64,000 nucleotides of DNA from Microbulbifer sp. YPW1 (lineage in GTDB: Bacteria > Pseudomonadota > Gammaproteobacteria > Pseudomonadales > Cellvibrionaceae). The DNA is taken from positions 4,290,001 to 4,354,000 of the forward strand of contig NZ_CP055157.1 of NCBI RefSeq assembly GCF_013367775.1, read 5' to 3'. A model generated the notes under the pieces. It was not told the DNA's origin. It did not search any database and saw nothing but the letters and a program-made list of their open reading frames with translations. Every line of letters begins with the position of its first letter. Positions within the stretch are counted from its first letter, which is position 1. Made by a program: the position numbers and the translations under genes. Of the stretch, positions 44,981 to 61,510 are shown piece by piece.

Positions 44981-45159
44981 AGTTTCCCCGTAGTTATTGT
45001 TTTGGCGAACACAAAATCGGGCGCCGCAAAGGGCGAAGAATACACCGGCAAAGAAATGACTGCCAGACAGAATCCGTCCACCATCAAGGCTAGACCACTC
45101 AGTCCGTCTTACGGGGGTCAGGCTCTAGCTCAATTGAACCGCCAGGATGGGACCCGCAA

Positions 45160-45198
45160 CACAAAACCCCGACCTCGCAACAGAAGCAAGCGCCGGGG
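45160..45198 (-). terminator. Terminator of the OmpW-like gene
   Basis: Read leftward, CCCCGGCGCTTGC pairs with GCGAGGTCGGGG in two helical parts around a 7-base loop, followed by TTTTGTGTTG. It lies about 28 bases past the stop at 45226. Confidence 0.6.
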
Positions 45199-45225
45199 CA
45201 ATAGTGTCTGGAGCATTTGATCAGG

Positions 45226-46038: not shown

Positions 46039-46122
46039 GGGTAACTCCTTGTAACTCTGAAATGCTCCATAGCCGCAGGAGGGTCGTCCATTAAAAAGTG
46101 ACCCGTGCGTGCGGTTAGTTTC

Positions 46123-46153
46123 AGTATAGGCGGAGTTTTCTGGAAAACAGCAA
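46123..46153 (-). promoter_or_regulatory. Possible promoter of the OmpW-like gene
   Basis: Read leftward, TATACT (46128-46123) is a good -10. TTGCTG (46153-46148) is a partial -35 at a long 19-base spacing. The gap 46039-46406 otherwise holds only the puuA terminator. Confidence 0.35.
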
Positions 46154-46209
46154 GTACTGCCTATGCATTGACCTGCATATAGGAAGAAATTTCTGCAAAA
46201 ATATTTTGC

Positions 46210-46240
46210 TCAAAAAAAATGCCCGCCATAAGGCGGGCCA
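46210..46240 (-). terminator. Terminator of the puuA-like gene
   Basis: Read leftward, GCCCGCC, a TTAT loop and GGCGGGC are followed by ATTTTTTTTGAG. It lies about 168 bases past the puuA stop. Confidence 0.9.
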
Positions 46241-46406
46241 GTTTTCTCGAACACACTTTCAGGAGGAGAGTTTGCGACGCACTGTGTACGCAAGTTCACA
46301 GCTGTCTGACTTAGGTATAGCAGACCTTTTCCATCCGCCACACACCCTGTCATCAAAGCCGTTGCTTACTGGTCGCAATCCACGCCGGAAAAAAACCGGC
46401 ATCCAT

Positions 46407-47792
46407 TTATACCCTTTGCAGGTAACTCTGGTATTCCACGTCGGTTACCCGGGCGGCAATTTCTGCCTGCTCCTGCCGTTTGAGCAACACGAACAAGTCG
46501 ACGAACTCGGGATCAAAGTACTCCTGCCACAGGGCACTTTCCGCGAAGCGGTCAAGCGCACTATTCCAGGTGTTGATCAACTGCTCGCTTTCGACCTGAT
46601 AGGCATCCCCTTCTACAGGTTTGGGCGGCTGTAATTTATTCTCCAGGCCATGGCAAACCCCGGCCAGAATTGCTGCCAGCACCAGATGGGCGTTGACGTC
46701 TGCACCGGCAATGCGATGCTCGATCCTCCGCGCCTTGGCCTCACTGGCCGGAATACGGAATGTCACCGTGCGATTGTCATATCCCCAACACAGGTTCAGT
46801 GGCGCGTGGCTGCTTTCCTGAAAACGGCGATAGGAGTTTGAGTGAGGTGCAAAGATTGCCATGGCATCGTTGGCCGTGGCCATCATGCCCGCTACCGCGT
46901 GGCGCAATAACTCCGAGCCCACGTCAGTGCCGTCGTCAAAGACATTGTTGCCATCTTTGTCCACCAGACTCATATGCACGTGCATGCCGTTGCCCGCGAG
47001 CTCGCCAAACGGCTTGGCCATAGCGCTCACGCGCAGGCCGTGGCTGCGGGCCACCCCTTTCAGCAAGCGTTTGAACAACAGGGTCTGGTCGGCGACCTTT
47101 ACCGGATCATCACAGTGCAGCAGATTGATCTCGAACTGTCCCGGCGCGCACTCGGACAAAATGGAGTCGGCGGGAATGCCCTGCGCTTCACAAGCCGCAC
47201 GTACGTCGGCAAAAAAGTGCCGCTGGGCATCAAGTTCCGATAGATCGTAAACATCGGTGGAAGGCACCAGATCGGAGTCATTGTCACTGACCGGGCGCGG
47301 GCGCCCCAGTTCATCGGCATCTTCCCGCAGCAGGTAGAACTCCAGCTCAGTGGCACATACCGCCTTGTAACCGAGACCAGCCAGGCGCTCGACCACCTTC
47401 TGCAGCTGTGCGCGGGGGTCCGCGTAGAGCGTTGTTCCATCGGCTTCGAACAGCTGCATATGCAGCTGCGCGGTCGGTTCGCGGTGCCAGGGCGCGAGCG
47501 AGATGGCAGAAACCGGCTGACAGACACCGTCACTATCACCACTGGCAAACACCAGCGGGCTGTTCTCAATATCGCGCCCCCAGATATCCAGGCTCACCGC
47601 ACTGCGCGGCATCTGCAGGCCACCAGCCAGCAGTTTTTTTGCTGAATCAGCCGGCAACCATTTGCCGCGGGGGATGCCGTTGATATCAAACACGAAGCCC
47701 TCGATCCATTTGAGATCGGGGTGCCCGGCGAGAAATGCATCCGAATCCGCGAGCAACTCAGAAGACGGCTGATATTGTTTTTGTGCTGCCAT
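46407..47792 (-). CDS. puuA: Glutamine synthetase-like gamma-glutamylputrescine synthetase
   Basis: 461 residues from the ATG at 47792; a GTG four codons earlier is the alternative. Glutamine synthetase catalytic motifs are visible: CATELEFYLL near residue 130, KPFGELAGNGMHVHMSL near 260, and NSYRRFQESSHAPLNLCWGYDNRTVTFRIP near 325. The sequence fits the PuuA branch, which ligates glutamate to putrescine as the first step in its use as a nitrogen source. It follows the spuC-like gene by 68 bases, so both may act on polyamines. The exact amine is not proven. Confidence 0.85.
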   Translation of the reverse strand: MAAQKQYQPSSELLADSDAFLAGHPDLKWIEGFVFDINGIPRGKWLPADSAKKLLAGGLQMPRSAVSLDIWGRDIENSPLVFASGDSDGVCQPVSAISLAPWHREPTAQLHMQLFEADGTTLYADPRAQLQKVVERLAGLGYKAVCATELEFYLLREDADELGRPRPVSDNDSDLVPSTDVYDLSELDAQRHFFADVRAACEAQGIPADSILSECAPGQFEINLLHCDDPVKVADQTLLFKRLLKGVARSHGLRVSAMAKPFGELAGNGMHVHMSLVDKDGNNVFDDGTDVGSELLRHAVAGMMATANDAMAIFAPHSNSYRRFQESSHAPLNLCWGYDNRTVTFRIPASEAKARRIEHRIAGADVNAHLVLAAILAGVCHGLENKLQPPKPVEGDAYQVESEQLINTWNSALDRFAESALWQEYFDPEFVDLFVLLKRQEQAEIAARVTDVEYQSYLQRV

Positions 47793-47820
47793 AAAAAGAT
47801 TCACATTGGTGGGAGGTTCG

Positions 47821-47847
47821 GCCCCGAGAGTTGGATACGCTCGGGGC
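47821..47847. repeat. Inverted repeat between spuC-like and puuA-like genes
   Basis: GCCCCGAG (47821-47828) and CTCGGGGC (47840-47847) are perfect arms with an 11-base loop. There is no T-tract, so it may be a processing or attenuation element, not a terminator. Confidence 0.55.
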
Positions 47848-47860
47848 CTATGCGACGAGT

Positions 47861-49210
47861 TTACGCCATGGCGCGAGCAGTATCATCCAGCGCACGGTGC
47901 GCCTTTTCTACCAGCTCGTCAATCTGCTCGATCGTGAGAATCAGCGGCGGAGCAATAATCATGGTGTCGCCAGTGGCACGCATCACCAGGCCGTTCTTGA
48001 TGCTCATGTCCCGGCAGACGCCACCCGCGGTGCAATCGTCGTCGAAACGTGCGCGGCTGTTTTTGTCTTTCACCAGCTCCAGCGCACCAACCAGGCCAAG
48101 CGTGCGGGCCTCGCCAACAATCGGGTGATCCGCCAGTTCCGCCCAGCGCTTGGCCAGGTACGGGCCAGTGGTGTCGCGGACAGTCTCGATGATTTTTTCT
48201 TCGCGCAGGATATTCAGGGTGGCTATACCTGCCATACAGGCCGCCGGGTGCGCGGAGTATGTGTAACCGTGGGTGAACTCGCCACCCTTGGACTTGATCA
48301 CTTCCGCCACACGGTCACTGACCATGGTGCCGCCCAGCGGGAAGTAACCATTGGTCACAGCCTTGGCAAAGGTCATCAGGTCCGGCTTCATACCGTAGTA
48401 ATCGGCACCGAACCACTCACCGGTCCGACCGAAGCCGAAAATCACTTCGTCCATCACCAGCAGAATGTCGTACTGATCCAGTATTTTCTTGATTTCCGGC
48501 CAGTAGGTTTCCGGCGGGATGATTACGCCACCGGCACCCTGGATCGGCTCGGCAATAAACGCCGCTACCTTTTCCGGCCCCAGCTCCTGGATCTTTTCAT
48601 CCAGACAGCGCGCTGCATGTACACCGAACTCTTCCGGGGACATGTCACCGCCTTCGCCAAACCAGTAGGGCTGCTGGATATGCTCGATATAGTCCAGGCT
48701 CTGGAACTGCTTGTGCATGCCACTCATGCCGCCGAGGCTGGCACCGCCAATGGTGGAACCGTGGTAGGCATTCTTGCGGGAGATAACGATACGCTTCTCG
48801 GGCTGCTCTTTGAGGTCCCAGTAGCGGCGGATAATACGCAGGTTGGTATCGTTGGCCTCACTGCCGGAACCGGTGAAGAACACATTGTTCATGCCAGCCG
48901 GGGTCACTTCCGCCAGCATGTCAGCCAGCTCGATGGACGGCACAGTAGTGCACTGGAAGAAGCTGTTGTAGAACGGCAGCTTGTTCAGCTGCTCGTAAAT
49001 GGCTTCGCTGATTTCACGACGGCTGTAGCCGAGGTTGCAGCACCACAGGCCCGACATGCCGTCGAGCATTTTGTGGCCATCAATGTCGGTGATATAGGCG
49101 CCCTCGGCGCTGGTGATCACTCGTGTGCCCTGGTTACCCAGATCGTGGAAATCGGTAAACGGGTGCAGCAGGTGCTCGCGGTCATGCTGTTGTAGCTGGC
49201 TTTTGTTCAT
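47861..49210 (-). CDS. spuC: Class III aminotransferase, probable putrescine--pyruvate transaminase (SpuC-like)
   Basis: 449 residues from the ATG at 49210, with AGGAG seven bases upstream. VFFTGSGSEANDTNLRIIRRYW binds PLP phosphate, MDEVIFGFGRTGEWFG holds the ring-binding Asp, and LMTFAKAVTNGYFPLGG holds the Schiff-base Lys. The N-terminus LHPFTDFHDLGNQGTRVI and MLDGMSGLWCCNLGY match the omega-amine:pyruvate branch. It lies upstream of the puuA-like gene on the same strand, fitting a putrescine pathway. Confidence 0.87.
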   Translation of the reverse strand: MNKSQLQQHDREHLLHPFTDFHDLGNQGTRVITSAEGAYITDIDGHKMLDGMSGLWCCNLGYSRREISEAIYEQLNKLPFYNSFFQCTTVPSIELADMLAEVTPAGMNNVFFTGSGSEANDTNLRIIRRYWDLKEQPEKRIVISRKNAYHGSTIGGASLGGMSGMHKQFQSLDYIEHIQQPYWFGEGGDMSPEEFGVHAARCLDEKIQELGPEKVAAFIAEPIQGAGGVIIPPETYWPEIKKILDQYDILLVMDEVIFGFGRTGEWFGADYYGMKPDLMTFAKAVTNGYFPLGGTMVSDRVAEVIKSKGGEFTHGYTYSAHPAACMAGIATLNILREEKIIETVRDTTGPYLAKRWAELADHPIVGEARTLGLVGALELVKDKNSRARFDDDCTAGGVCRDMSIKNGLVMRATGDTMIIAPPLILTIEQIDELVEKAHRALDDTARAMA

Positions 49211-49565
49211 GAACTCACTCCTGAATCGAATTGCGTCAGAGACGCCCCTGCGCAGCGGGGCCAAAAATGTGATCACATTTTAGGGGTAAGAACGGAGATG
49301 GTGCAACTGGTATTCGCAGCAGGTGCATCGACACATGGATAGATCAAGCGTAGTGCCGATTGAGAGCCAGTGGTCGCGCGGGTTTAGCTGAAGGGGCCAG
49401 CGGAGATAAAGGAAAGGAGAAGGGCCGGAAACCGGCCCGAAATGGTGAAAAGCATGGTGGAAAGGCGCCATGGACAGTGAGAACCAGCGGGTCACCATGG
49501 TGTGGGCCCCGCCCCGATTGAACCTGCCCGCGAGGAACTGCGTTACGAGGGCTTCAGTAGCCGCT
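49211..49565. other. Intergenic region between spuC-like gene and cyanophycinase gene
   Basis: This 355-base gap must hold the promoter of the spuC-puuA pair, read leftward. Apart from the hairpin at 49420-49440 I see no gene or clear repeat. A tRNA or riboswitch was not recognised. Confidence 0.5.
49420..49440 (-). terminator. Possible terminator of the cyanophycinase operon
   Basis: Read leftward, GGGCCGG, TTT and CCGGCCC make a tight hairpin (49438-49422), followed by the pyrimidine-rich TTCTCCTTTCCTTT. The T-tract is interrupted, so it may be weak. Confidence 0.5.
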
Positions 49566-50906
49566 CTATTCCGCCGCTTGGATCGATACCGACACCGGCT
49601 CAATATCGAGCAGCACCCCAACCACGGAATACTGGTCCTTGGTGCCGGAGCCGTAGTGCCAGTACCCCCTGGAATCATCGGTCTGGCGAAAGCGAAACAG
49701 GACACCACGGCCGGTCTGGTCGTCAAATGTATAACGTCTCAACAACTGCATTTCACTATTGTCCAGTAGTGAAAAACCGAGCAGCTGATCCAGGCGCTGG
49801 TTACCCAGGGCCATACCAGCACCCTGGGTGGCACGGTATCCAAATGCCTCTTTGCCCGCCGTTTCGCTGCCTTTCGCTGACACTTCCAGGCTCTCCCAGT
49901 CAAGGCTGTCGCCATCACTCAGCACGCTAAGCTGCACCCCGTTCACGGAAAATGCGTTTTCCCCGGACGCAAACTGCGCACCGCGGCCGTCGGTAATCAC
50001 CAGGTTGCCGGCGCCCACAACGGTCAGGGTTTTCGCGTCCAGGTTCACCAACACACCGGTGTCCTCATCCACACCAAACCCCAGTCGCTCAGCCGCTGCC
50101 GCGCTGTGCCCCAGGGCCCGCACGAGCCGTCCCAGGCGTGCCTTGCGATCAAAGTGCTGGTCGACGATCCCTACCGGCATGAATCCCAGTCCGCGGGCGA
50201 GCAGCAACTGGCCGGCCTCCTGGCTTTCCATCCCCGCATACTCACTCACGCTGGGCAGGGTCAGTGCGCTGAGTGAATCTCCGGCGGCAATCATGGTATG
50301 ACTCATGATGGCCGCACCGGCACTGGTACCTCCGACCACTGCGCCCTGCGACAACTGGGTACGAATCGCCTTCAATACGGGGGTATCCTCGCCTTCCGCA
50401 TCCAGCAACGTACCGGTAATACGCATCTGGTCACCGCCCACAAACCAGATGCCACCAACATCTTCCAGGCTTTCAGCCAATGCCCGGTCATTGCCACCCT
50501 GCAGCCACTGACTTTCATCCACGGACTCCGTGGCAGGGTCGTCTTTCACCGCGATGGGCAGCACACGGATATCACCGGCAAAACCATAGCGGCGCAGATC
50601 CTCGGAAAACTGCTGCGCATAATGAGCCGGCCGACCGGATGCCGCCGGCACGATTGCCACGTTCGGAAACCCGGCGGGAATAGCATCAATAAATGCCCGG
50701 TAAACCCGGCTGTTATCACTGCGCAAGGCACCACCGACAATCAGCAGGCTACCTGACTGTCGCGACGCATCACGCTCTTCGAGCCCCGCTTCCTGTGCAC
50801 GGACAGCGATCCCCTCGACTAAAGCCCCGTCATCTTCGCCCGCACACCCCAGTGTGGCGAGCAGCAAGATACCCAGGAATGACGCTGTCATCGTTGAAAA
50901 TTTCAT
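49566..50906 (-). CDS. Cyanophycinase-family lipoprotein (peptidase S51)
   Basis: 446 residues from the ATG at 50906; the lipobox is LATLGC near residue 20. The peptidase S51 core has SLLIVGGALRSDN, GGIWFVGGDQMRITGTL and VVGGTSAGAAIMSHTMI with the nucleophile Ser. IVDQHFDRKARLGRL carries the catalytic His, and FGVDEDTGVLV the Glu. The family cleaves cyanophycin, a polyaspartate with arginine side chains, to beta-Asp-Arg dipeptides. About 130 residues follow the core with no clear match. The ATG overlaps the AraC gene's stop by 4 bases. Confidence 0.88.
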   Translation of the reverse strand: MKFSTMTASFLGILLLATLGCAGEDDGALVEGIAVRAQEAGLEERDASRQSGSLLIVGGALRSDNSRVYRAFIDAIPAGFPNVAIVPAASGRPAHYAQQFSEDLRRYGFAGDIRVLPIAVKDDPATESVDESQWLQGGNDRALAESLEDVGGIWFVGGDQMRITGTLLDAEGEDTPVLKAIRTQLSQGAVVGGTSAGAAIMSHTMIAAGDSLSALTLPSVSEYAGMESQEAGQLLLARGLGFMPVGIVDQHFDRKARLGRLVRALGHSAAAAERLGFGVDEDTGVLVNLDAKTLTVVGAGNLVITDGRGAQFASGENAFSVNGVQLSVLSDGDSLDWESLEVSAKGSETAGKEAFGYRATQGAGMALGNQRLDQLLGFSLLDNSEMQLLRRYTFDDQTGRGVLFRFRQTDDSRGYWHYGSGTKDQYSVVGVLLDIEPVSVSIQAAE

Positions 50907-51313
50907 AAACTGCTTTCCACTCGAAAAAATTCTGACGCAGATGCCTTCAGGCGAAACCGGTCTGCTGTGACCGTTTCTCTTTCGCCCAGCGTCCGCTCCT
51001 CGCGCGGGCTTCTTCCGCAATACTCTTTGAAACAGCGACTGAAATGGGAAGCGGAGCGAAACCCGCATTGCTGTCCAATAGCATCAATACTCAAACTGCT
51101 CTCAAACAACAGCTTGCGCGCCTGTTGCAAACGCAGCTCACGATAAAAACGTGCTGGCAATACACCTCTCCGTCGACAGAATATCCGCTCGAGTTTTTTG
51201 ACGGAGATATCGAGATAAGCCGCCAGCTCGCCGGTTTGCAAGGGCTCGGAAAGGTTACTGCGCATCAGCGCCAGGGCCTCGTCGAACAGGTGTCGGTCTT
51301 GCATTGCTGCCAC
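50903..51313 (-). CDS. Short AraC-family transcriptional regulator
   Basis: 136 residues from a GTG at 51313, which has GGGGA six bases upstream; an ATG at 51304 and a longer ATG at 51367 (overlapping iadA) are alternatives. The protein is essentially the double helix-turn-helix domain: LAAYLDISVKKLERIFCRRRGVLPARFYRELRLQQARKLL and SIDAIGQQCGFRSASHFSRCFKEYCGRSPREER. There is no ligand-binding N-terminal domain. It probably controls the surrounding catabolic genes and may sense signals through a partner. It is inside the operon, between iadA and the cyanophycinase gene. Confidence 0.84.
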   Translation of the reverse strand: MAAMQDRHLFDEALALMRSNLSEPLQTGELAAYLDISVKKLERIFCRRRGVLPARFYRELRLQQARKLLFESSLSIDAIGQQCGFRSASHFSRCFKEYCGRSPREERTLGERETVTADRFRLKASASEFFRVESSL

Positions 51314-51329
51314 AGGATTTCCCCAGACG

Positions 51330-52502
51330 TTAGTCGGAACGCTCCGCTGTCTGCGGTTGGCGATCAAACAACTGCCAGCGCCCCTTCGCCATCACGTGCG
51401 TAATCTGAAAGCGCTGTGGATCCACCAGGATCAGGTCGGCATCGCGTCCCGCAGCTACCTGCCCTTTGCGCTTGAGACCCAGCGCACGCGCCGGGTTACT
51501 GGTCACCACCTGCAGTGCCCGGGAGATCTCTACCTTTTCGCGCTGTACCGCACTGCGAAACTCGTCAAACAGGCTGGCGATCGCACCCACTTCCATATCG
51601 CGCAGCTCGCCGAGATCACAAAAGTTTGTGAGGGACCCCTGGGCATCAGAGGAAAACGTCAACTGATCCACTGGAGCGCCCTGCTCCAGCGCCATTGCCA
51701 GCGCCTGGCTCGCGCGCATTTCGCCACTGGCCAGAATCTCCTCGGTCGTAGACGTTGTGAAGTCGATGAAACCACCGGCGCGGGCAAACTCCACACCATG
51801 CTCCAGTAGCGAAGTATTGCGATTCATGTGTGTGGGATAAAACTGGGAAATGGGAATCTCAGAATGTTCCACCACATCGAACAGCGGTTGCAGACGCCCC
51901 GAACCATCGCCCACATGCACGCTGATCACACCGCCCTTCCCACTCAGCAGGCCGGCAACCCGAGCGTCTGCCGCAATGCGGATCAGCTCATCCCGCGAGG
52001 GGTGCGAAGATCGATGATCGGATATGGCGAGCTCGCCGACGCCGATTATGTTGTCCACCAGCATGATGTCGCTGCGTACGCTGCCGGTCAGCGTATTCAC
52101 CGGCACCTGGTAGGAACCGGTTTGCATAAAGCAGGTAATACCCTGCGCCTCAAGGGCCTTGGCCTTGCCGAACAGTTCATTCAGGGTACGGGTAGTCGCA
52201 TCGGTACCCAGAGCGCCCACAACGGTGGTTACCCCCGCGGCAATCGCATCCCGCACATCCAGTTCCGGTGTACGTGAGCCGAATCCGCCCTCGCCACCAC
52301 CGCCGCTGATATGTACCAGAGTGTCAACAAGGCCCGGCATCAACCAGGCGCCGTCAGCATCCACTACCTGACCGACAGATTCCGGCAGGGTCAAATGCTG
52401 GTCGATCTTTGCCACGCGATCTCCGGCCACCAAGACATCACATCGGCCGAGGCTGCGCGGGGCGAAAACTTCCGCATTTTTAATCAGAGTGATTTGAGAC
52501 AT
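51330..52502 (-). CDS. iadA: Isoaspartyl dipeptidase homologue (beta-aspartyl-peptidase), metal site altered
   Basis: 390 residues of the amidohydrolase superfamily. GGGGEGGFGSRTPE, MQTGSYQVPV, ISDHRSSHPS, VISVHVGDGSG, YPTHMNRNTS and LTFSSDAQGS match IadA, which splits beta-aspartyl dipeptides. In this copy the N-terminal HxH is LVH (GLVDTLVHISG), so the first His is Leu. The residue lined up with the carboxylated Lys of E. coli IadA is Glu (GVGELAISDHR). The other His residues and the catalytic Asp remain. The gene follows the YfcC-type transporter by 16 bases. Confidence 0.87.
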   Translation of the reverse strand: MSQITLIKNAEVFAPRSLGRCDVLVAGDRVAKIDQHLTLPESVGQVVDADGAWLMPGLVDTLVHISGGGGEGGFGSRTPELDVRDAIAAGVTTVVGALGTDATTRTLNELFGKAKALEAQGITCFMQTGSYQVPVNTLTGSVRSDIMLVDNIIGVGELAISDHRSSHPSRDELIRIAADARVAGLLSGKGGVISVHVGDGSGRLQPLFDVVEHSEIPISQFYPTHMNRNTSLLEHGVEFARAGGFIDFTTSTTEEILASGEMRASQALAMALEQGAPVDQLTFSSDAQGSLTNFCDLGELRDMEVGAIASLFDEFRSAVQREKVEISRALQVVTSNPARALGLKRKGQVAAGRDADLILVDPQRFQITHVMAKGRWQLFDRQPQTAERSD

Positions 52503-52518
52503 AAAAACTGCTTAAAAT

Positions 52519-54045
52519 TTAAAAACCGGATACCGCGGCGATCAGCACCGCGAGCGACGCAAACAGGAACAGCATTCCCTGCAAGGGCAGCACAAAGCGC
52601 ACCCATATGCCCCAGTCCAAACGCGCCGCACCCAGGCAACCCATCAGCGCCGCAGAGGTGGGCACCACAATATTGGTAAGTCCATCGCCGAGCTGAAATG
52701 CGAGCACCGCCGTCTGTCGCGTGACTCCCACCACATCGGCGAGCGGCGCCATGATCGGCATGGTCAACGCCGCCTGGCCGGATCCGGAAGTAATAAAGAA
52801 ATTGAACACCGTCTGAAAAGCCAACATAAACCAGGCTGAGACAGCACCAGACACGTCCGCAAGGCTGCTGCCCGCAGTGTGTAGAATCGTATTCAGGATA
52901 CTTGCCCCCTGGGGATCATCGCCCCCCAGCAACAGCACAATACCCTTGGCAAATGCCACAACCATGGCGGCGGGCAGCAATTGCTGAGCCCCCTCTTTGA
53001 ACGCTGCGGCCGCTTTGTTCGCGGTCAGGCCATTAAGCCCAAACCCGATGGCCACCACAGCAATAACAATACCCAGGGTAAAAAACTGGCTGGCAATTTC
53101 AGGCAGGAAATAACTGCGCTCCACCACGCCCCAGATCATCCAGGCAATACCGGCACAGAACAGCAACAACACCCAGCCATCACCACGCACCATGGTCTGC
53201 AGGGCGTTTGCGGAAACCGCTTTATCCCGAAATACACGGTCAGACTCATAGGCCAGAGACCGCGAGGGCTGCCGCTGCACCCGGCGCGCGTAAAAGATCG
53301 TGTACCCCGCGAGCCCGCAGGTCGCCAGTAGCCACAGGGCCATACGCAAGCCGCTACCGGACATCAGGGGCACACCGGCAATTCCCTGGGCAATACTCAC
53401 ACCAAACGGGTTCATCCACGAGGTGGCAAAACCCACCTGTGTGGCAACATAGGTCACCAGCAGCGCGGTGATACTGTCATACCCCATGGAGACCAAAAGT
53501 GGCACCACTATCAGGGTAAAAGGAATCACCTCTTCCCCCATTCCGAAGACAGCGCCACCCAGGGAAAACAGAAAGCACAGAATCGCGAGATACCAGTGCC
53601 CGGCATCACGATTACGCGCAATTACCTGGAACAGGCCGCGCTCTACAGAGCCACTGGCAAATATCAGACCGAATGCGCCACCGGTAAGGAGAATAAACGC
53701 AAATACGCCGATAGATGCCCCCCACTTGCTACCAGACACCATGCCCTCGAAGGCAAAGTTGAGGAACCCGATACCACCGCCCTCGGCAAACAGCGACATA
53801 CCCGCCGGTTCATCCGATGCTCTCTGATAGCTTTGTGGATCAATTACACTGCGCTCGACACCGTTGACCACCTGCGTGACGGTTTCGAAGGTACCTGCGG
53901 GAATCAGGAAGTTCAGAGCGAAAGCCAACAGTGCTACCGCCAGCAAAATCAGATAAGTATCTGGCATTGCCCAGGCTTTGTTCACCGTTTGTCCCTCTGC
54001 ATCCGCAACATCGGCGCAGGAGGAATGGGTATCGCTTGTCTGCAT
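52519..54045 (-). CDS. YfcC-family inner-membrane transporter
   Basis: 508 residues from the ATG at 54045; the ribosome-binding site is poor, and a later ATG before MPDTYLILLAVAL is possible. About twelve hydrophobic segments are visible. MGEEVIPFTLIVVPLLVSMGYDSITALLVTYV and VGFATSWMNPFGVSIAQGIAGVPLMSG match YfcC/arginine-ornithine-type carriers. FFITSGSGQAALTMPIMAPLADVVGVTRQTAV holds the second conserved loop. In this context it should bring dipeptide or amino acid products into the cytoplasm for the isoaspartyl dipeptidase encoded 16 bases downstream. Confidence 0.88.
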   Translation of the reverse strand: MQTSDTHSSCADVADAEGQTVNKAWAMPDTYLILLAVALLAFALNFLIPAGTFETVTQVVNGVERSVIDPQSYQRASDEPAGMSLFAEGGGIGFLNFAFEGMVSGSKWGASIGVFAFILLTGGAFGLIFASGSVERGLFQVIARNRDAGHWYLAILCFLFSLGGAVFGMGEEVIPFTLIVVPLLVSMGYDSITALLVTYVATQVGFATSWMNPFGVSIAQGIAGVPLMSGSGLRMALWLLATCGLAGYTIFYARRVQRQPSRSLAYESDRVFRDKAVSANALQTMVRGDGWVLLLFCAGIAWMIWGVVERSYFLPEIASQFFTLGIVIAVVAIGFGLNGLTANKAAAAFKEGAQQLLPAAMVVAFAKGIVLLLGGDDPQGASILNTILHTAGSSLADVSGAVSAWFMLAFQTVFNFFITSGSGQAALTMPIMAPLADVVGVTRQTAVLAFQLGDGLTNIVVPTSAALMGCLGAARLDWGIWVRFVLPLQGMLFLFASLAVLIAAVSGF

Positions 54046-54126
54046 AGGAGTACACCGCAGTAAAAGAAAAAGGGGTGGCGGGCGCAAACTGCGCGCCCGC
54101 CGGGATCAGGTCCTGTGAGACGCCGA

Positions 54127-56994
54127 TCAGAACGCGTGGCCGTAGCTCAGGGTATAGAACCGTCCCATCGCGTTATGGTTAAAGTTATCCACGTTAGCAC
54201 TGGTACCCAGCACCAGAGGCGGCTCTTCGTCCAGCAGGTTTTTGACCTGCAGGCTCAGCCAGCTACCGGTGTCGAAGTCTCGGCTAACGCTGAGATCGAA
54301 GGTCAGCCAGCTGTCGACTTCCACTCCGCCGTTTTCATCCATGTTTACTTTTGACAGGAAGTACTCAGCACCCGGCTCCATCAACGCATCCAGGGTGCGT
54401 TGAGACGGATCATCGGCATAGCTGTGGGTGTATCTGGCACTGAGGGTGGAAGACCAGTTCTCGTAGCGCCAGCGCAGGGAGCTGTTTGCCAGCCAGCGGG
54501 GGTAGGTGTACTCACCAGCCTCGCTGATCACGCCGGAGACTTCTGATGGCAACTTGTCAAATTGCGCCATATAGGTTCCATCCAGCGTAAAACGGAAGCT
54601 GCCCCAGTTTTCGGTATCCAAGTGTTGCGTAAAAGCAAGGTCAACACCACTGGTCTTCTGCCAGCCAAGATTGGTCAACTGGAAGTGGGCATCCACAACA
54701 ATATTTCCAACCACTTCCAGGCCTGGCTGACCGGGCAACAGCTCACCGGCCTCCACTATCGGATACTCTCCCGCCAGTGCGCGTAAAATAAAGTCGTCTT
54801 GCTCAATGCCGATCAGGTTTTCGTGCTCGATATTCCAGTAGTCAATACTGATCTCGGTATCTTCCGTCGGCTTCAGCAGGAAGCCAGCGCCCCAGGTAGT
54901 GGCGGTTTCGGGCTTCAGATCGTCATTGCTCACATCTTCAGACAGCAAAGACTGACCATCGGCAGTGGGGTCACCATCACAGGCACCCGGTGTCGCCTCA
55001 CAATCCACGGTATAGCTGGAAAGCAAGGTGCCAGCACCCACCTGCGCCAGCGAAGGCGCTCGGTAGGAGGTAGACCAGTTACTGCGGAAAATAACTGCAT
55101 CATTAAATGCGTGGCGCAGCGCAACCTTCGGGTTGGCGTCTCCACCGAAACTGTCGTAATAGTCATATCGCAGTGCTAACTGGAGCTCGGTAGTTGCCGC
55201 CAGCGGAATCATCTGCTCGGTATACACTGCCCACTGGTTCCGCGAGGCATTGGCGGAAGTGGAGCTGAATCCGAGAATTGGCTCAGGATTATAGGTCGTT
55301 GATACTGCATCGGCAGCCGGCATATCGTTAACGGTCTCGCGGCGGAATTCACCCCCAATTGCCACCTGAATCGCGCCGGCAGGAAGCTCTATCCAACTTC
55401 CGGAAATATTTCCGTCAATCGCGTAAAGACTGGATTTACCACTGCGCTTGGCATCGGTGCGGACAAACTCGTCAATCGCATCCACCTGATCAGATTGACC
55501 ATTGAACGGGTTGTACCATGCGGTGGTTTTACCAACATCTTCACAGGTTTCGCCAGCCCCATAGCTCGCGCTCGGACGCACCAGATCCAGGTCCCAACGA
55601 TTCACGACCGTACCGTCAGTACACAAGTTGCCCAAGCTGGCGTTGTAAAAAGCTTCGGAGTTGTAAAGACCAGAAATGCCACGCTGTTCTGATTCACTGC
55701 GTCCCAGGTTGGCCGCCACTTCCCAGTTCCAATTGGATACTTCGCCACGCAAGCCAGTTACCAGACGAGTCGACTGCGACTCGACTTCAACTGCCCTTGC
55801 GTCCGGGAACTTCCCGTAAGCAAAAATCGGATAGCCATAGAAATCTGAAAAATCACTGGTAGGCGCGTCAGGACTGAAAGAACCCTCTTCCACGATATCC
55901 GCTTTCAATTGCTCTGGCCAAAGTGGGCTCTCCGGATCAAAGGGCGCTCGTGAAAAGTTGGCAGGAGAAGACGTACCGCGAGATGCCGTTGTCTGCAGCA
56001 TCAAGGTGTTGAACCACTCGAGGTTGTCAGAAATATCGTAATTGAAGGTACCAACTACGCTCGCACTTTCGTACTCATCCTGAGTCGCAGCAATCGCGTT
56101 GGTATTGAACGCACAGTATTCACCGAAATCCCCAAAACCAAACTGATCCGCAGGACAGCCGTCCTCGTCGGGAGACTGGGTTTGATCGTAGTACATCGAA
56201 TAGAAATCATTGAAGCTGGGGTAAATACCCTGCTGGCTCGGGCGCACGGAGTTCGCCGTCAATTTACGGTCGCGATCGTACATCGCATTGCGTGAAAACA
56301 GGTCCACTACCACCATGGTATGGCTGCGTTCGCCCTCGCGGCCCCATACCCAGTTCAGGTTGTACTTGCCTTCATCACTGCCAGCAGTGGAGTTACCGTG
56401 GGTCAGCGTGACTTCATTACCGGTAAAATCTTCACGCAGTACAAAGTTCACCACGCCCGCTACTGCGTCGGCGCCGTAGGTGGCAGCGGCGCCACTGGGC
56501 AACACTTCCACACGCTCGATAGCAGACAGGGGAATGGAGTTCACATCGACGAAGGACTCCTGCCCTTTGGCAAATGAACTGACGGATACACGGCGGCCGT
56601 TGACCAGTACCAGAGTGGAACTGGCACCCAGGCCACGCAGGGAAACACCGGCAGCGCCGACCGGAGTATTGCTGGATAGCGGCCCACCGGTTGCTGTAGA
56701 AAAGGTGCCGCTGCCGCCACCAGTCTGGCTCAGCTGCTGCAAAATTTCGATCGGTGACGTAGCGCCGGAGGCTTCGATATCGTCACGGTTGATCTGCACT
56801 ACCTGTACCGCGCCCTCGGTATCCAGGCCCTTGATGTGAGTACCGGTAACCACCACCTCTTCTACGGTGGACTCCGCCGGTTGCGTCACTCCCTGCGCCA
56901 TAACAAGCGCGCTGCCGCCCATCAGGGAGCAACCGACAGCCAATTTTACGGCCTTGCTTAAGGGAGATTTTTTCAACTGGGTTCTGTTATCCAT
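54127..56994 (-). CDS. TonB-dependent outer-membrane receptor
   Basis: 955 residues from the ATG at 56994, with GGAGG seven bases upstream. A signal peptide ending near ALVMAQG is followed by a possible TonB box (EEVVVTGTHI) and the plug domain (GVSLRGLGASSTLVLVNGRRV, AAATYGADAVAGVVNFVLR). The rest is a large beta-barrel ending GRFYTLSYGHAF. Such receptors import oligomers such as peptides, glycans and siderophores. Its place between the secreted cyanophycinase and the transporter suggests that it imports cyanophycin dipeptides or oligomers. Specificity is inferred from neighbours only. Confidence 0.93.
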   Translation of the reverse strand: MDNRTQLKKSPLSKAVKLAVGCSLMGGSALVMAQGVTQPAESTVEEVVVTGTHIKGLDTEGAVQVVQINRDDIEASGATSPIEILQQLSQTGGGSGTFSTATGGPLSSNTPVGAAGVSLRGLGASSTLVLVNGRRVSVSSFAKGQESFVDVNSIPLSAIERVEVLPSGAAATYGADAVAGVVNFVLREDFTGNEVTLTHGNSTAGSDEGKYNLNWVWGREGERSHTMVVVDLFSRNAMYDRDRKLTANSVRPSQQGIYPSFNDFYSMYYDQTQSPDEDGCPADQFGFGDFGEYCAFNTNAIAATQDEYESASVVGTFNYDISDNLEWFNTLMLQTTASRGTSSPANFSRAPFDPESPLWPEQLKADIVEEGSFSPDAPTSDFSDFYGYPIFAYGKFPDARAVEVESQSTRLVTGLRGEVSNWNWEVAANLGRSESEQRGISGLYNSEAFYNASLGNLCTDGTVVNRWDLDLVRPSASYGAGETCEDVGKTTAWYNPFNGQSDQVDAIDEFVRTDAKRSGKSSLYAIDGNISGSWIELPAGAIQVAIGGEFRRETVNDMPAADAVSTTYNPEPILGFSSTSANASRNQWAVYTEQMIPLAATTELQLALRYDYYDSFGGDANPKVALRHAFNDAVIFRSNWSTSYRAPSLAQVGAGTLLSSYTVDCEATPGACDGDPTADGQSLLSEDVSNDDLKPETATTWGAGFLLKPTEDTEISIDYWNIEHENLIGIEQDDFILRALAGEYPIVEAGELLPGQPGLEVVGNIVVDAHFQLTNLGWQKTSGVDLAFTQHLDTENWGSFRFTLDGTYMAQFDKLPSEVSGVISEAGEYTYPRWLANSSLRWRYENWSSTLSARYTHSYADDPSQRTLDALMEPGAEYFLSKVNMDENGGVEVDSWLTFDLSVSRDFDTGSWLSLQVKNLLDEEPPLVLGTSANVDNFNHNAMGRFYTLSYGHAF

Positions 56995-57341
56995 TTTATG
57001 CCCTCCAGGAACCTGGTTCCTGTCTCTATTGGTTCTCTGTGATCTTCGTTTTGACCAGCGCCGTCCATCGACATCTGGCGATTTCGTTGAGGAAGAAAAC
57101 CGGCGGCATTGCAGTGCAACCCAGTCACCGTACAGCGCGAACGACGCACGCAAATACGCCACGGACTGACACAGTAATTTGGGTAGGAGATTTAAGAACG
57201 GATAAATCCGACTTATAGCTTCCTTGCGCCCGCATACATTTTTTAATGGCTATGGCTATCTTGGATTTGCTGTTGAATACGAAAACATTCGCAACGAACA
57301 TTCGCAACAATAGGCAGGAGAAACCAGACAGGAAAGCTCAA

Positions 57342-57375
57342 AAAATGCGGAGCCCCCGGTTAAACCGAGGCGGGG
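57342..57375 (-). terminator. Terminator of the small-peptide transcript
   Basis: Read leftward, GCCTCGG, a TTTAA loop and CCGGGGGC pair with one G-U and one bulge, then TCCGCATTTTTT follows. It begins about ten bases past the stop of the 22-codon frame at 57379. Confidence 0.55.
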
Positions 57376-57378
57376 AAG

Positions 57379-57447
57379 CTACTCGTCAAACCACTCGCTG
57401 AGGTAGTAGTTGGAGGAGCAGCGCTCAATGGCAGCAATATTATTCAT
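57379..57447 (-). CDS. Putative 22-residue peptide, unknown function
   Basis: An ATG at 57447 opens a 22-codon frame. The peptide begins MNNIAAIE, has a Cys at residue 10, and ends with an aromatic, acidic stretch, NYYLSEWFDE. A promoter lies about 85 bases upstream and a hairpin with a T-tract just downstream, so it would form a discrete transcript of about 180 bases inside the cyanophycinase/receptor gap. The ribosome-binding site is weak (AAGG fourteen bases away). It could be a leader, a small regulator or a modified peptide precursor; alternatively the transcript is a non-coding RNA. Confidence 0.4.
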   Translation of the reverse strand: MNNIAAIERCSSNYYLSEWFDE

Positions 57448-57531
57448 TTTGCTCTATATGCCTTGCACTTTGCGCTTGATGGTTGAAGCCCGATCAGCCG
57501 CTGTTACACCTACCAGCCAATCTTGATCTAA

Positions 57532-57560
57532 TTTTTATCACGCTGAAAAAATACTGTAAA
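57532..57560 (-). promoter_or_regulatory. Predicted promoter of the small-peptide transcript
   Basis: Read leftward, TTTACA (57560-57555) and TAAAAA (57537-57532) are 17 bases apart in an A/T-rich stretch. The rest of the 56995-57753 gap holds the small peptide, its terminator, the terminator of the secreted cyanophycinase and, presumably, the receptor promoter. Confidence 0.5.
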
Positions 57561-57679
57561 GCATTTCCGTTGAGTAATTTTATCTGCACATAGATCCCGG
57601 AGACAGCCGAATTAACTGCAACACGCCCGCGCCAAAGGAGCACTTTCTTTCGCGGAGACAAAAGGAATTTCAGGCCACA

Positions 57680-57717
57680 AAAGAAGACCGGGAAGGAATT
57701 GCCTTCCCGGTCTTCAG
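57680..57717 (-). terminator. Terminator of the secreted cyanophycinase gene
   Basis: Read leftward, GAAGACCGGGAAGG and CCTTCCCGGTCTTC make a perfect 14-base-pair stem with a 5-base loop, followed by TTTTG. It lies about 38 bases past the stop. Confidence 0.92.
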
Positions 57718-57753
57718 GTTTACCCACACTTTAATGCTCGAGAAAGTCGCGGC

Positions 57754-59169
57754 TTACTGGTAGGGCTGATTCAGATAAAAATTGGACGAACGACCGTCTA
57801 TCCCGACCCGCTTCGGCGTAACATTGCTCGCTCCAGTGGATATATTGAATTGGTCGAACTCACTGAGCTTATAGCGCAACACATCCTCATAAACGACTGG
57901 CAATCCACATTGCGCCTGGGTCCGGGAAGTCTGCGCATCCTCCTGCAAAACGTAGACGTTACCAGCCCCGTCCACTACCCCGCTGCCATCCGGGGTGAAG
58001 AAAATAGAGGTCGCCTCATCTACACCGACCCCCTGGATACCTGCGGGAAGGCCCGCCATAAATGCCATCAGCCGGCCCATGCGATCGCGCTCGGCAAAAT
58101 GGGTATCGACAATCACGCCCTGCATGATGGCAGTACTCAGAAAGCCTGAAGAAATATTGATGTATTCGTGGCACAAGTCGGTGACAGCCTCCGACGAATA
58201 AGCGCCGAGCACGCCATCGGGATCGTAGATGGATTCCGACTGCACCGCGGCACCGGCCGATGTGCCCCCAAGAACGCCGCCACGGGCCATTACCTGATCC
58301 AACGCCTGCTGCAACGCAGTGCCCTGCCACTGATTGAGATAGTCTGACTGGTCTCCACCGGCGATCCAGACAAATTCTGCAGAATTCACCGCCCAGGTAA
58401 CATAGTCATCATTGGCGTGCTGAGGGCGATCGACAATGAGGGTTTCCACGGAATCCGCATTCAGCAAACCCATGAGGTAATCGTTGTAGCCATCGCTGCC
58501 ACTGGTGCGCAGCACCACAACGTCGCCACCGCCAATCAACGGCTCAACCCTGCGCGTAAAGGCCGCATCCACATCGCTGCCACCGCCCATTACCAGAAGC
58601 CCGCCAGCGCCCTGCTCCACACAGACATCCGCTTCGCTGCCAGTCATATAACGGGTAAGGCCGCCGGGTTTATCGGGGCGCGCACCCAGCTCGCAGGTAC
58701 CACCACCGCTACTGCCGCCACTACTGCCACCGCTGCTACTTCCTCCCCCACTACTTCCACCGGTATCGGGGATACCGTCGACGGTGAGGGTGTAATCACC
58801 GCGGCCGCTGTATCGGGTTACCTTGAGCGTATACAGCCCGCTGCCATCGACATAGACGCTGGCAGCTTCCGGTCGATCACCGGTTTCCGCGCTGTAGAGT
58901 CGCTGGGAGGCATCGTACAGGTGCCAATCGAAGTCATCGCCACTGGAATGATCCAGGGAAATGTCCAGATTCGCCGGGGAATCGACATTGAAGTAGTACC
59001 AGTCCTGATCACGTCGATTGGCAATATTCCCCGCAACCGCCTGGGCGGAACACAGCGGGCCATCGGCATCGGACTCGGCGTCATTTGATTCACTTTCCGC
59101 AGACACACAGGCAAATGCGCCGTTACTTAACACGGAAAACAACAATACAGGTATCAGTTTACTTCCCAT
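57754..59169 (-). CDS. Secreted cyanophycinase with N-terminal PPC domain
   Basis: 471 residues. A signal peptide (ending near AFACVSA) is followed by a PPC domain (about 25-132; DQDWYYFNVDSPANLDISL, SGLYTLKVTRYSGRGDYTLTVDG), a Ser/Gly linker (about 135-155) and a peptidase S51 domain. The core has GGLLVMGGGSDVD, FVWIAGGDQSDYLN and VLGGTSAGAAVQSE with the nucleophile Ser; IVDTHFAERDRMGRL gives the His and GVDEATSIFF the Glu. PPC domains occur on secreted hydrolases and are often cleaved off. This fits an extracellular CphE-type enzyme. It has its own strong terminator. Confidence 0.9.
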   Translation of the reverse strand: MGSKLIPVLLFSVLSNGAFACVSAESESNDAESDADGPLCSAQAVAGNIANRRDQDWYYFNVDSPANLDISLDHSSGDDFDWHLYDASQRLYSAETGDRPEAASVYVDGSGLYTLKVTRYSGRGDYTLTVDGIPDTGGSSGGGSSSGGSSGGSSGGGTCELGARPDKPGGLTRYMTGSEADVCVEQGAGGLLVMGGGSDVDAAFTRRVEPLIGGGDVVVLRTSGSDGYNDYLMGLLNADSVETLIVDRPQHANDDYVTWAVNSAEFVWIAGGDQSDYLNQWQGTALQQALDQVMARGGVLGGTSAGAAVQSESIYDPDGVLGAYSSEAVTDLCHEYINISSGFLSTAIMQGVIVDTHFAERDRMGRLMAFMAGLPAGIQGVGVDEATSIFFTPDGSGVVDGAGNVYVLQEDAQTSRTQAQCGLPVVYEDVLRYKLSEFDQFNISTGASNVTPKRVGIDGRSSNFYLNQPYQ

Positions 59170-59305
59170 GGTTGGCTCCTTGAGGCTTGTTTATTTTTAT
59201 TGCCGAACAAGGGTACCCAAGGGATCGACCCCGAACATCGAATTCGGGGCCGATGGGAAAAAACAGTCAAGTTTGGGAAAAAACAGAACAGTTTGCCGCG
59301 CGGAA

Positions 59306-59614
59306 TCAAATACCGCAGTCGAGCGCATCCAGCAGCATATGCGTGACCAGACCGATACCCAGCCAGCGTATAGGCTTCCAGGGCAAAAACATCATGGCCC
59401 CGTAGAAAGAGATGGGAAACATTTTATGCAGGGGGTGGAAATTGATGCTGCAGCGGCCTGGATCGTAAATCGGGGAAGCCAGTAAATGGTCGAGATCCAC
59501 CAGGTTGGCAGCCAGCATCACCAGTGCCGCCTTTTTCCAGTCGTCGCGAAAGAAAAACCACGCGATTGCCAGTGGAATCAGGACATGTAAAACAATATGG
59601 ATATAGCTGAACAT
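59306..59614 (-). CDS. DUF6122-like small membrane protein
   Basis: 102 residues from the ATG at 59614, which shares a base with the stop of the GntR gene (TGATG). Three hydrophobic segments and conserved histidine-rich positions are present: YIHIVLHVLIPLAIAWFF, NLVDLDHLLASPIYDPGRCSINFHPLH and LGIGLVTHMLLDALD. The DLDHLL and HPLH motifs recall the metal-dependent membrane hydrolases of the YdjM type. Function unknown. Confidence 0.8.
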   Translation of the reverse strand: MFSYIHIVLHVLIPLAIAWFFFRDDWKKAALVMLAANLVDLDHLLASPIYDPGRCSINFHPLHKMFPISFYGAMMFLPWKPIRWLGIGLVTHMLLDALDCGI

Positions 59615-60288
59615 CAAGACGGCATCAATTCTTCGGCGGAAATAGAACCCAGGCCCTCTTCGATGTCCTGGCGTATGGCGGTGCGGACCTTCTGCTCATC
59701 GCCACTGGCGATGGCGGCAATCAGGTCCTGATGTCGGTCCGGCAGCTCCTGAACACCAAAACGCTGAAATACCAGATGCTGTAGCGGCGCGGTCTGCAGC
59801 CACAGGCTTTCGATCAGCGACAGAATGATGTGCGGGCGGCCGAGGCGATAGAGAGTAAAGTGAAACTCCAGGTTGGCGGTGACATATTCCTGGATATCTT
59901 TTTTATCGAGAGAGGCTGTCACCCGGTCATCCAGGGCCTTCAACACTGCCAGTTCTTCTTCACCGACGAACGGCAACGCCTGGGCCGCAGCCTGACACTC
60001 CAGTGCCACCCGCGCCGCACAGATTTCATCCAGCTTTTCGCGGGTCATGGTCGGCACAGTGACACGTCGGGTATCCGACAGCTCCAGCGCGCGCTCAGAG
60101 GTCAGCCGGCGCAGCGCCTCTCGCACCGGCATCGGGCTGCAATCCAGATCTGCAGCGAGACCGCGAATGGTAATCGCCCTGCCTGGCAGGAACTGGCCGC
60201 GCAGTATGGCGTCGCGCACCTGATAGTAGACTCGCTCCTGGGTGGTGCGGAACTCTTCCTGTGGCTCGGTAAACTCGGCGTTTCTCAA
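59614..60288 (-). CDS. GntR-family (FadR/FCD) transcriptional regulator
   Basis: 224 residues from a TTG at 60288, which has GGGG six bases upstream. A longer frame from 60399 would overlap the patatin gene and adds an unconserved tail. The winged helix region has VYYQVRDAILRGQFLPGRAITIRGLAADLDCSPMPVREALRRLTSERAL. The C-terminal FCD domain has the metal-binding pattern ARVALECQAA, NLEFHFTLYRLG and DRHQDLIAAIASGD. It may control the patatin and aminotransferase genes nearby. The effector is unknown, probably a carboxylate. Confidence 0.88.
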   Translation of the reverse strand: MRNAEFTEPQEEFRTTQERVYYQVRDAILRGQFLPGRAITIRGLAADLDCSPMPVREALRRLTSERALELSDTRRVTVPTMTREKLDEICAARVALECQAAAQALPFVGEEELAVLKALDDRVTASLDKKDIQEYVTANLEFHFTLYRLGRPHIILSLIESLWLQTAPLQHLVFQRFGVQELPDRHQDLIAAIASGDEQKVRTAIRQDIEEGLGSISAEELMPS

Positions 60289-60343
60289 TGGCGGCCCCGT
60301 AGTACTGGTGTCGAAAAGTGCCCGGAAGTGCTCGCCGCACCCC

Positions 60344-61462
60344 TCAGGCAGACATCGCCAGGGCCAATTTGTGTGGCGCCTGATCGCTGCCGACCGCAAT
60401 CAGTGCATCGGCAATGGCACCAGTTTGCCACATTTCAAAGAAATCCTCCGCTACCTGCTTGCCGGCCTCGGTCACCGCATTCCAGTATTTGAGGCGCTCC
60501 TCGGTCGAAAGCTTCACAAAATCGTCCCGATCGGGGATCTTGCCGAAGGGCAATTTGGCCACCCACGCGGGAGAGGGTGCCACCAGGATCACATTGTCCA
60601 TGGCCCCACCGCGCACCCAGCGCCAGCGGAAACTCTTGTCGAACCAGCCCGGCACCATATACGGGAAGAAGTGCGGATACAGCACCAGCCCCTGCGGATG
60701 CTGGAAGCCGAGGTCGAAATGGTAGTCGGTGATGCCGCCGTCCCGATAATTGCCCGCCGGTGCCCCCGTCGGGGTGGGCACGCCGGCCATCACCAGCGGG
60801 ATGGAGCCTGATGCCAGCACGGCAGGGCACACATTTTCCGCAACGAGTGGCGTGTTGACCGTAGAGAGATTGCGGAAGGCGACAGATGGCGCCTCGCCGG
60901 AGTGGAACACAACCCGGTCCCAGAAGGCTCGCAGGGTGCGGCGGCTCACGGCATTGGCCAGCGCCGATGCCAGCAGCGCGGGTGCCAGCACAGCCTTGTT
61001 ATCGCTGCCAAGGGGGCCGCGTCCCCGCACGGTAACAAAATGGCTGCGCCATACGGGATTGGCCGCCACCTGGGCTGCGCCCTCCTCCCCCAGCACATCG
61101 AGCAGGATCTTCTCGCCGGCAGCGGTAATCTCACCCGGCGTGGGTCGCTCACTGGCATAGGTCTGGTTTACGTAGCCGTATTCCAGCTTTTCCAGGGACG
61201 CCATGGGGTCAGAGGTGGCGTAACACATATTGCGGAAACTGCCGATGGAAGACCCCAGTGTCGCGATGGGATCCTTGCGGCCGCGAAAAAATTCGCCGAT
61301 CAACACGCGATCGAGCTGGCTAATGGACAGCCACTTGGGGCCGCCGGAGGCGCCCACCAGGGTGGACACCATCTGCTGCTGCAGACCTTCCTCGCGCACC
61401 CTGCGCGCGGCACTGGCCCCGGCCAGCACAACACAATTCTCGAATTTTTTCGCTTTCGCCAT
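60344..61462 (-). CDS. Patatin-like phospholipase/hydrolase
   Basis: 372 residues from the ATG at 61462 (MAKAKKFENCVVLAGASA). The serine-aspartate dyad of patatins is visible: GSSIGSFRNM, a GxSxG near residue 75, and DGGITDYHF near 240. An oxyanion-type GASGGPKW lies near 40. The family hydrolyses acyl lipids. It lies between gloA and the GntR regulator on one strand. The bond cleaved and the lipid cannot be assigned. Confidence 0.82.
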   Translation of the reverse strand: MAKAKKFENCVVLAGASAARRVREEGLQQQMVSTLVGASGGPKWLSISQLDRVLIGEFFRGRKDPIATLGSSIGSFRNMCYATSDPMASLEKLEYGYVNQTYASERPTPGEITAAGEKILLDVLGEEGAAQVAANPVWRSHFVTVRGRGPLGSDNKAVLAPALLASALANAVSRRTLRAFWDRVVFHSGEAPSVAFRNLSTVNTPLVAENVCPAVLASGSIPLVMAGVPTPTGAPAGNYRDGGITDYHFDLGFQHPQGLVLYPHFFPYMVPGWFDKSFRWRWVRGGAMDNVILVAPSPAWVAKLPFGKIPDRDDFVKLSTEERLKYWNAVTEAGKQVAEDFFEMWQTGAIADALIAVGSDQAPHKLALAMSA

Positions 61463-61510
61463 CTTTGCGCCCACAAACTACTGTCTTTCGTGATTACCGC
61501 TCGCCAGTGA

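Follow-up and report, generated by a model that had tools for sequence, protein, structure and literature searches.

A 64,000-nucleotide stretch of the one-contig, 4.58 Mb genome of Microbulbifer sp. YPW1 (positions 4290001-4354000; hereafter the window) carries six genes that probably form a cassette for scavenging cyanophycin, the nitrogen store of cyanobacteria, released by other cells. The genes all lie on the minus strand, in the order of a PPC-domain S51 peptidase, a TonB-dependent receptor, a YfcC-family carrier, a homologue of the isoaspartyl dipeptidase IadA, a short AraC-type regulator, and a probable S51 lipoprotein. Content, strand and order had been described in a first-pass annotation of the window and were confirmed. 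Its proposal that the locus scavenges cyanophycin or beta-Asp-Arg was supported, because receptors of the same clade are linked to S51 genes in other genomes, an isoaspartyl peptidase is kept at these loci even where its type is swapped, the IadA homologue belongs to a lineage linked to arginine genes, and no protein of the genome passes the cut-off of the cyanophycin synthetase model.

The receptor (54127..56994, minus strand), which we assign to a cyanophycin-locus clade, has plug and beta-barrel domains, and the ATG at 56994, behind GGAGG, is a likelier start than the GTG at 57162. Genome contigs were scanned with an alignment of six receptors, which yielded 547 confirmed relatives, and the comparison covered the 80 best of these. 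These were split post hoc, after their neighbours had been viewed, at a score gap into 33 clade members (E <=3e-102, identity >=31%) and 47 others (E >=6e-82, identity <=28%); a contig-end fragment with 66% identity (L101) was added to the clade. Partner genes were sought in flanks of at most 10 kb to either side of the receptor, with an S51 profile built on 5 sequences. S51 was found at 28 of the 33 clade loci, YfcC at 27 and IadA at 25, whereas S51, YfcC, IadA and an IaaA motif were found at 0/47 of the other receptor loci. Some of these 47 lie on short contigs, and the entries L067 and G009/L044 represent a single contig. S51 genes thus do accompany receptors of this clade in other genomes, and the reading of the first-pass annotation withstood the test that it had set.

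An isoaspartyl peptidase, either IadA or IaaA, was present at 28/33 clade loci. The IaaA motif replaced IadA in three of the eight clade loci without IadA, and Pfam Asparaginase_2 confirmed two of them. All three are alphaproteobacterial, with IaaA straight after the S51 gene. The exchange of two unrelated enzyme types while an isoaspartyl peptidase is kept indicates a beta-aspartyl product. Clade members came from Gammaproteobacteria (Microbulbifer, Parahaliea, Halioglobus, Wenzhouxiangella, Silanimonas, Thalassotalea, Alkalimonas, Rheinheimera, Pseudoalteromonas and a Woeseiaceae assembly) and from Alphaproteobacteria (Citromicrobium, Aurantiacibacter and Sandarakinorhabdus), and at many of their loci (L069-L085, L087, L088) S51 is encoded on the opposite strand, upstream of the receptor gene. 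In one congener the receptor gene is divided between two frames (G306, C67:114527-117383).

Within the genus Microbulbifer, the receptor was found in 20/48 genomes. A sample of 293 genomes of the order contained the receptor in 8 (at E values up to 1e-60, with only two candidates per genome scored), matches to the cyanophycinase model TIGR02069 in 38 (22 over the cut-off), and the cyanophycin synthetase CphA1 over the cut-off in 9. The nearest S51 gene lay within 3 kb of the receptor in six of the eight receptor genomes; the seventh is in contig pieces, and the eighth, whose receptor has 31% identity, had no S51 match. Receptor, YfcC, IadA and S51 occurred together in G000, G229, G269, G009, G174 and G075, while G088 has receptor, YfcC and IadA on a small contig and the S51 gene on another. 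The order receptor-YfcC-IadA-S51 recurred in six genomes from four families of the order, and a fifth family showed it in part, as receptor-YfcC-IadA on a single small contig. This conservation across families indicated that the arrangement is not due to chance. None of the seven genomes of the order with a receptor locus gave a CphA1 match; in the YPW1 genome the best match to the synthetase model TIGR02068 scored 178 against a cut-off of 850 bits.

Both S51 proteins were named cyanophycinases in the first-pass annotation, and this held over the model cut-off for the lipoprotein only. The probable lipoprotein (49566..50909, minus strand; likely start ATG 50909) scored 188 bits against TIGR02069, over the cut-off of 126.6, and its GGTSAG and DQHFDRKARLGR motifs are intact. 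A cysteine follows its signal sequence, as seen by eye in the window protein and in L043 and flagged by script in the congeners L042 and L062. The PPC-domain protein (57754..59169, minus strand), a cyanophycinase-like peptidase and the proposed extracellular depolymerase, scored 95.3 bits against the same model, under the cut-off. It matched Pfam S51 with 45 bits (cut-off 23.9) and the PPC domain with 25.0 bits, slightly below the Pfam cut-off of 25.9, and its GGTSAG, GGDQ and DTHFAERDRMGR motifs are all intact. When aligned to 7uqv, 3en0 and 7uqw, both window proteins showed the catalytic serine motif G-T-S-A-G, the GGDQ motif and the H-F motif.

The serine motif was intact in 40/40 S51 domains aligned across it, and 37/40 S51 rows had an N-terminal hydrophobic stretch (score >=1.9), which the PPC-domain protein also has; the export call came from a crude hydropathy scan, not SignalP, that took the best of all possible starts. 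Because of these two features, cleavage of cyanophycin probably starts outside the cytoplasm. Other S51 genes differed in form or setting. Long S51 proteins were seen at L055 8509-10746 (G221) and as open frames of 798 residues (G184) and 823 residues (G265); the G221 protein, a 748-residue frame, has two S51 matches and adjoins two CphA matches. Near the receptor locus, at L046 5750-6766 and at L089 from 17299, there is an extra short S51-like protein that has a GGTSAGMA motif and an altered H-F motif. PPC-type S51 genes were also found at L059 10075-11454 (51% identity to that of the window) and L057 8571-10025 (46%); the 20 kb examined there contained no match to the receptor, to YfcC or to IadA.

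The IadA homologue (51330..52502, minus strand) scored 478 bits against TIGR01975 (cut-off 331), and the nearest IadA in the protein search, labelled Microbulbifer mangrovi, is 98% identical. Its assignment as an isoaspartyl dipeptidase homologue therefore stood at the level of the family, but one of the five zinc ligands is absent. In the Leucothrix mucor enzyme LmIadA these ligands are H64, H66, E159, H198 and H227 (PMC10206079). The window protein keeps four of the five, and the first histidine of the HxH motif, at the position of LmIadA H64 and EcIadA H68, is replaced with leucine (Leu62, codon at 52317-52319). The zinc site thus differs from that of the five solved IadA sequences aligned and of E. 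coli IadA (PMC10206079), and the protein is an IadA homologue of a distinct lineage rather than a standard IadA.

The same leucine was found in 32/32 IadA genes of the receptor or S51 loci examined, one pair of which is the same contig. We compared 175 IadA sequences, comprising the top 120 matches to the window protein and the locus copies, with some duplicates, and chosen by a pattern demanding the second histidine and GGGGE. The first HxH position was leucine in 102 and histidine in 73, with no third residue. At positions outside the selection pattern, the glutamate ligand, the two later histidine ligands, the substrate arginine and the catalytic aspartate were invariant in 102/102 Leu-type sequences, and 4/73 His-type sequences had lysine instead of the glutamate ligand. 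Trees placed two Leu/His state changes, with the motif columns in or out, against about 20 for shuffled labels (69-sequence tree).

Genomic context separated the two types. Among 31 genomes of the order with an IadA match at E 1e-60 or better, 20 were Leu-type and 11 His-type; the regions viewed ranged from 3.8 to about 20 kb, with family names checked for representatives only. Seven Leu-type genes lie in receptor loci, nine lie beside a GbdR-like AraC gene and/or an arginine succinyltransferase operon, three lie beside an ABC transporter of basic-amino-acid type, and one is in a CphA-S51 cluster. A context of arginine catabolism, arginine-type transport or a receptor locus was thus found for the Leu-type in 19/20 genomes and for the His-type in 0/11, counts that are not independent, since the Leu-type lineage shares descent. 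Seven of the His-type genes are in CphA-S51 clusters and four had none of the genes sought nearby, although one of the four (G065) adjoins another amino-acid-type ABC transporter that our queries did not match. In the CphA-S51-IadA clusters, IadA was His-type in 7/8. For the context representatives, the succinyltransferase-operon proteins passed the curated model, and two ABC binding proteins had lysine/arginine/ornithine as best model with scores under the cut-off. This context ties the window IadA to arginine-bearing dipeptides. We considered the change from histidine to leucine as a mark of cyanophycin loci alone, and rejected it because Leu-type genes also lie beside arginine genes in S51-negative genomes. 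The arginine succinyltransferase operon adjoins the locus itself in G075 and G174.

The YfcC/DcuC-family inner-membrane carrier (52519..54087, minus strand; an alternative ATG start is possible at 54045) scored 650 bits against NF008611 (cut-off 500), for which the NCBIfam name is just putative basic amino acid antiporter. Eleven of the 293 genomes of the order have YfcC; seven of these are receptor-locus copies, and in 8/11 the gene is beside an isoaspartyl peptidase gene, the eighth case being that of G124, where IaaA is the next gene after YfcC on a contig of 3.8 kb. In G007, YfcC is followed by an AstE/AspA-family gene (L217 3064-4047) whose solved relatives include diaminobutyrate deacetylases. 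This enzyme is possibly a third kind of dipeptidase partner, its match being to the family rather than demonstrated for CphZ itself. Nothing relevant was seen by eye around YfcC in G206 (1.5 kb each side) or G139 (12 kb). YfcC is the best candidate for carrying the dipeptide across the inner membrane, judged from gene neighbourhoods, because it is the sole carrier recognised among the recurrent genes and stays with the dipeptidase gene despite the change of type.

The AraC-type regulator (50903..51367, minus strand) has 154 residues and consists of the helix-turn-helix part only (Pfam HTH_18). Its best NCBIfam model is GbdR, matched under the cut-off at positions 228-332 of 365, the C-terminal part. 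Over about 100 residues it is 40-43% identical to the AraC-type proteins beside nine Leu-type IadA genes, which may correspond to Pseudomonas ArgR; a full-length representative of these has a DJ-1-type domain in front, and representatives match the GbdR model under the cut-off. The short form is conserved in two congeners (147 and 135 residues), and L062 also has a match. Regulators near receptor genes elsewhere were of RpiR/SIS type (L063 6503-7378, L090 9051-9938) or Lrp/AsnC type (L045 6372-6875 in G174, L046 6782-7282 in G075), with the short AraC form in Microbulbifer.

The first-pass annotation had placed the genes in a single operon with gaps of 16-81 bases or overlaps from the receptor onward. 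With likely starts these spacings are correct: 39 or 81 bases between receptor and YfcC, 16 between YfcC and IadA, and overlaps further downstream. The single-operon reading holds for the five genes from the receptor on. The PPC-S51 gene is set apart by 759 bases and a terminator-like hairpin (57683..57715, minus strand; 14 pairs, 9 GC, T-rich tail) between its 3' end and the receptor, and is therefore probably a separate transcription unit. A second terminator-like hairpin between receptor and YfcC (54077..54101, minus strand; 10 pairs, 9 GC, weak tail) is possibly an attenuator, and a third (49422..49438, minus strand; 7 GC pairs) is at the operon end, 3' of the last S51 gene. Terminator-like sites barely exceeded those in shuffled sequences (14 against 11.7); what speaks for the three hairpins is where they lie and how strong they are, not how many such sites there are. 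The promoter scan showed no excess (4 against 5.4 in shuffles), an Rfam scan of 44000-61500 gave no match, and a search for the Pseudomonas ArgR box gave 3 matches in the window against 2.3 expected, with 0 at the locus.

Comparison with congeners gave the boundaries of the locus. A class III aminotransferase gene (47861..49276) and a GntR/FCD regulator gene (59614..60399), both on the minus strand, flank it, and both are present near each other in 9/9 locus-negative congeners examined. The distance between them is 10.3 kb in two locus-positive congeners, as in the window, and only 0.2-2.3 kb in the nine negative ones. The locus is therefore a cassette of about 10 kb, and the two flanking genes are bystanders; the aminotransferase as a downstream route for arginine was rejected as part of the locus on this ground. 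The glutamine-synthetase-like gene beyond the aminotransferase (46407-47804) would also be a bystander. Between the GntR and PPC-S51 genes lies a small membrane protein (59306-59617), also seen in G269 and L062. At L045 (G174), the IadA and aminotransferase genes are each split over frames, probably through assembly errors.

In the pathway that we propose, the secreted PPC-S51 enzyme would cleave cyanophycin extracellularly, and the TonB receptor would import the soluble products, namely the dipeptides beta-Asp-Arg and beta-Asp-Lys along with short oligomers of cyanophycin. The S51 lipoprotein would complete oligomer breakdown at the outer membrane, YfcC would move the dipeptide into the cytoplasm, and the Leu-type IadA, in which no export signal was seen by eye, would hydrolyze it to aspartate and arginine, with the short AraC protein controlling the operon. 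The beta-Asp-Arg dipeptide has a mass of about 289 Da and should fit porins, so that we favour a receptor that takes short oligomers besides the dipeptide.

This task order resembles that of polysaccharide utilization loci (PULs) and the TonB-containing carbohydrate utilization loci of Gammaproteobacteria, which combine a depolymerase outside, a TonB receptor, an inner-membrane carrier, a cytoplasmic hydrolase and a regulator. The likeness to a PUL drawn in the first-pass annotation holds for this layout only: the proposed substrate is an amino-acid polymer, and a scan of ten locus-region proteins detected no SusD family member, hence no SusC/SusD pair of the Bacteroidetes type.

The annotation also considered that a nitrogen-polymer locus built in this way would be notable; the concept of a cyanophycin scavenging locus is already published. 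For the Bacteroidetes strain L21-Spi-D4, a 'cyanophycin utilization locus' is reported in which cyanophycinase and iadA genes are accompanied by a transporter gene (Ben Hania 2017 via PMC10206079). Relative to that description, the window has a proteobacterial TonB receptor, YfcC and a Leu-type IadA, with IaaA in some relatives. The window likewise shows what marks a scavenging locus, with S51 genes clustered with an isoaspartyl dipeptidase gene, transporters (receptor and YfcC), and a genome without a synthetase match over the cut-off. In Citromicrobium sp. JLT1363, a TonB receptor is reported to lie near a cyanophycinase gene, and cyanophycin is among the predicted substrates (Tang 2012, PMC3400609); a Citromicrobium assembly (L065) carries the receptor clade of the window. 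To that one reported neighbourhood, our analysis adds that the linkage extends over the clade, that YfcC takes part, that the dipeptidase type can be exchanged, and where the cassette ends. A Thalassotalea genome paper proposes extracellular cyanophycin use from a cyanophycinase gene (PMC7564069). The cyanophycin cluster of Leucothrix mucor contains cphA1, cyanophycinase and iadA (PMC10206079); S51 and IadA families are common to both, whereas the window lacks the synthetase, its S51 proteins have export signals, and its IadA is of the Leu lineage. Among the papers listed by literature searches, with subscription papers outside their scope, we recognised none that describes these receptors together with YfcC or with a Leu-type IadA. 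The present analysis adds the clade-wide linkage of a separate receptor lineage, the cassette boundaries, the exchange of dipeptidase types and the IadA lineage with its altered zinc site.

Several points weigh against cyanophycin scavenging by this locus. Only one of the two window S51 proteins passes the cyanophycinase cut-off, and the window IadA is short of one zinc ligand. Among the five S51-less clade loci, L068 and L101 are cut by contig ends yet retain IadA, but the draft genome of L068 has zero S51 match, and the receptors of L086, L091 and L092 (31-37% identity) are without any partner gene in the flanks examined; the latter three genomes have S51-family matches elsewhere, in a family broader than cyanophycinase. 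No arginine succinyltransferase match was found in the YPW1 genome, so this route was rejected as a partner of the locus in its own genome. The need for a TonB receptor is debatable for a dipeptide that should pass porins, unless oligomers are taken. Substrate, transport and expression of the locus genes are predictions, as are the cargo at each membrane, the face occupied by the lipoprotein, the hydrolysis by the altered IadA and the control of the operon.

An unlikely alternative, though the strongest, is that the locus scavenges general isoaspartyl peptides of aged protein, with the S51 enzymes acting as exo-peptidases on them. The low model score of the PPC-S51 protein would fit this, but the lipoprotein is over the cyanophycinase cut-off, the IadA lineage is linked to arginine genes, and in four receptor genomes of the order (G000, G229, G269 and G075) another S51 gene is found in the locus or close to it. 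We regard it as very improbable that the receptor is meant for a different ligand, such as a siderophore or peptides in general, and was placed here by chance. The solved structures matched by its sequence are indeed siderophore, colicin I, B12 and ferric-citrate receptors, and the three lone homologues also point that way, but the restriction of S51 to clade members and the recurrence of the partner genes across Gamma- and Alphaproteobacteria argue against it. Just as improbable is a periplasmic or vestigial pathway in which porins admit the dipeptide, the Leu-type IadA is inactive and another peptidase finishes the work: the missing zinc ligand and the dipeptide size are in its favour, but the five further positions compared, which serve metal binding, substrate binding or catalysis, are invariant throughout the Leu-type sequences, and at three loci that lack IadA its place is taken by IaaA.

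Cyanophycin scavenging is thus the reading that we retain. CphZ/AotO lies in the arginine transport operon of Pseudomonas. Its position is comparable to that of the Leu-type IadA beside arginine genes, the enzyme families being unrelated. CphZ is reported to be a cyanophycin-dipeptide hydrolase (cited in PMC10206079). We tentatively suggest, as a possibility that falls somewhat short of probable, that the Leu-type IadA is a so far unrecognised dipeptidase dedicated to beta-Asp-Arg, whose zinc site is altered and perhaps binds one metal. It would act in gammaproteobacterial arginine catabolism like CphZ in Pseudomonas and would be coupled to the receptor clade and the YfcC group, which would carry cyanophycin fragments and the dipeptides derived from them. 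If this is true, environmental cyanophycin would be a routine source of arginine for marine bacteria. The IadA lineage with its deviant zinc site is directly testable, and the locus offers a candidate function for YfcC. Together, the receptor clade, YfcC and the peptidase would provide a sequence handle for bacteria that feed on cyanobacterial nitrogen stores.

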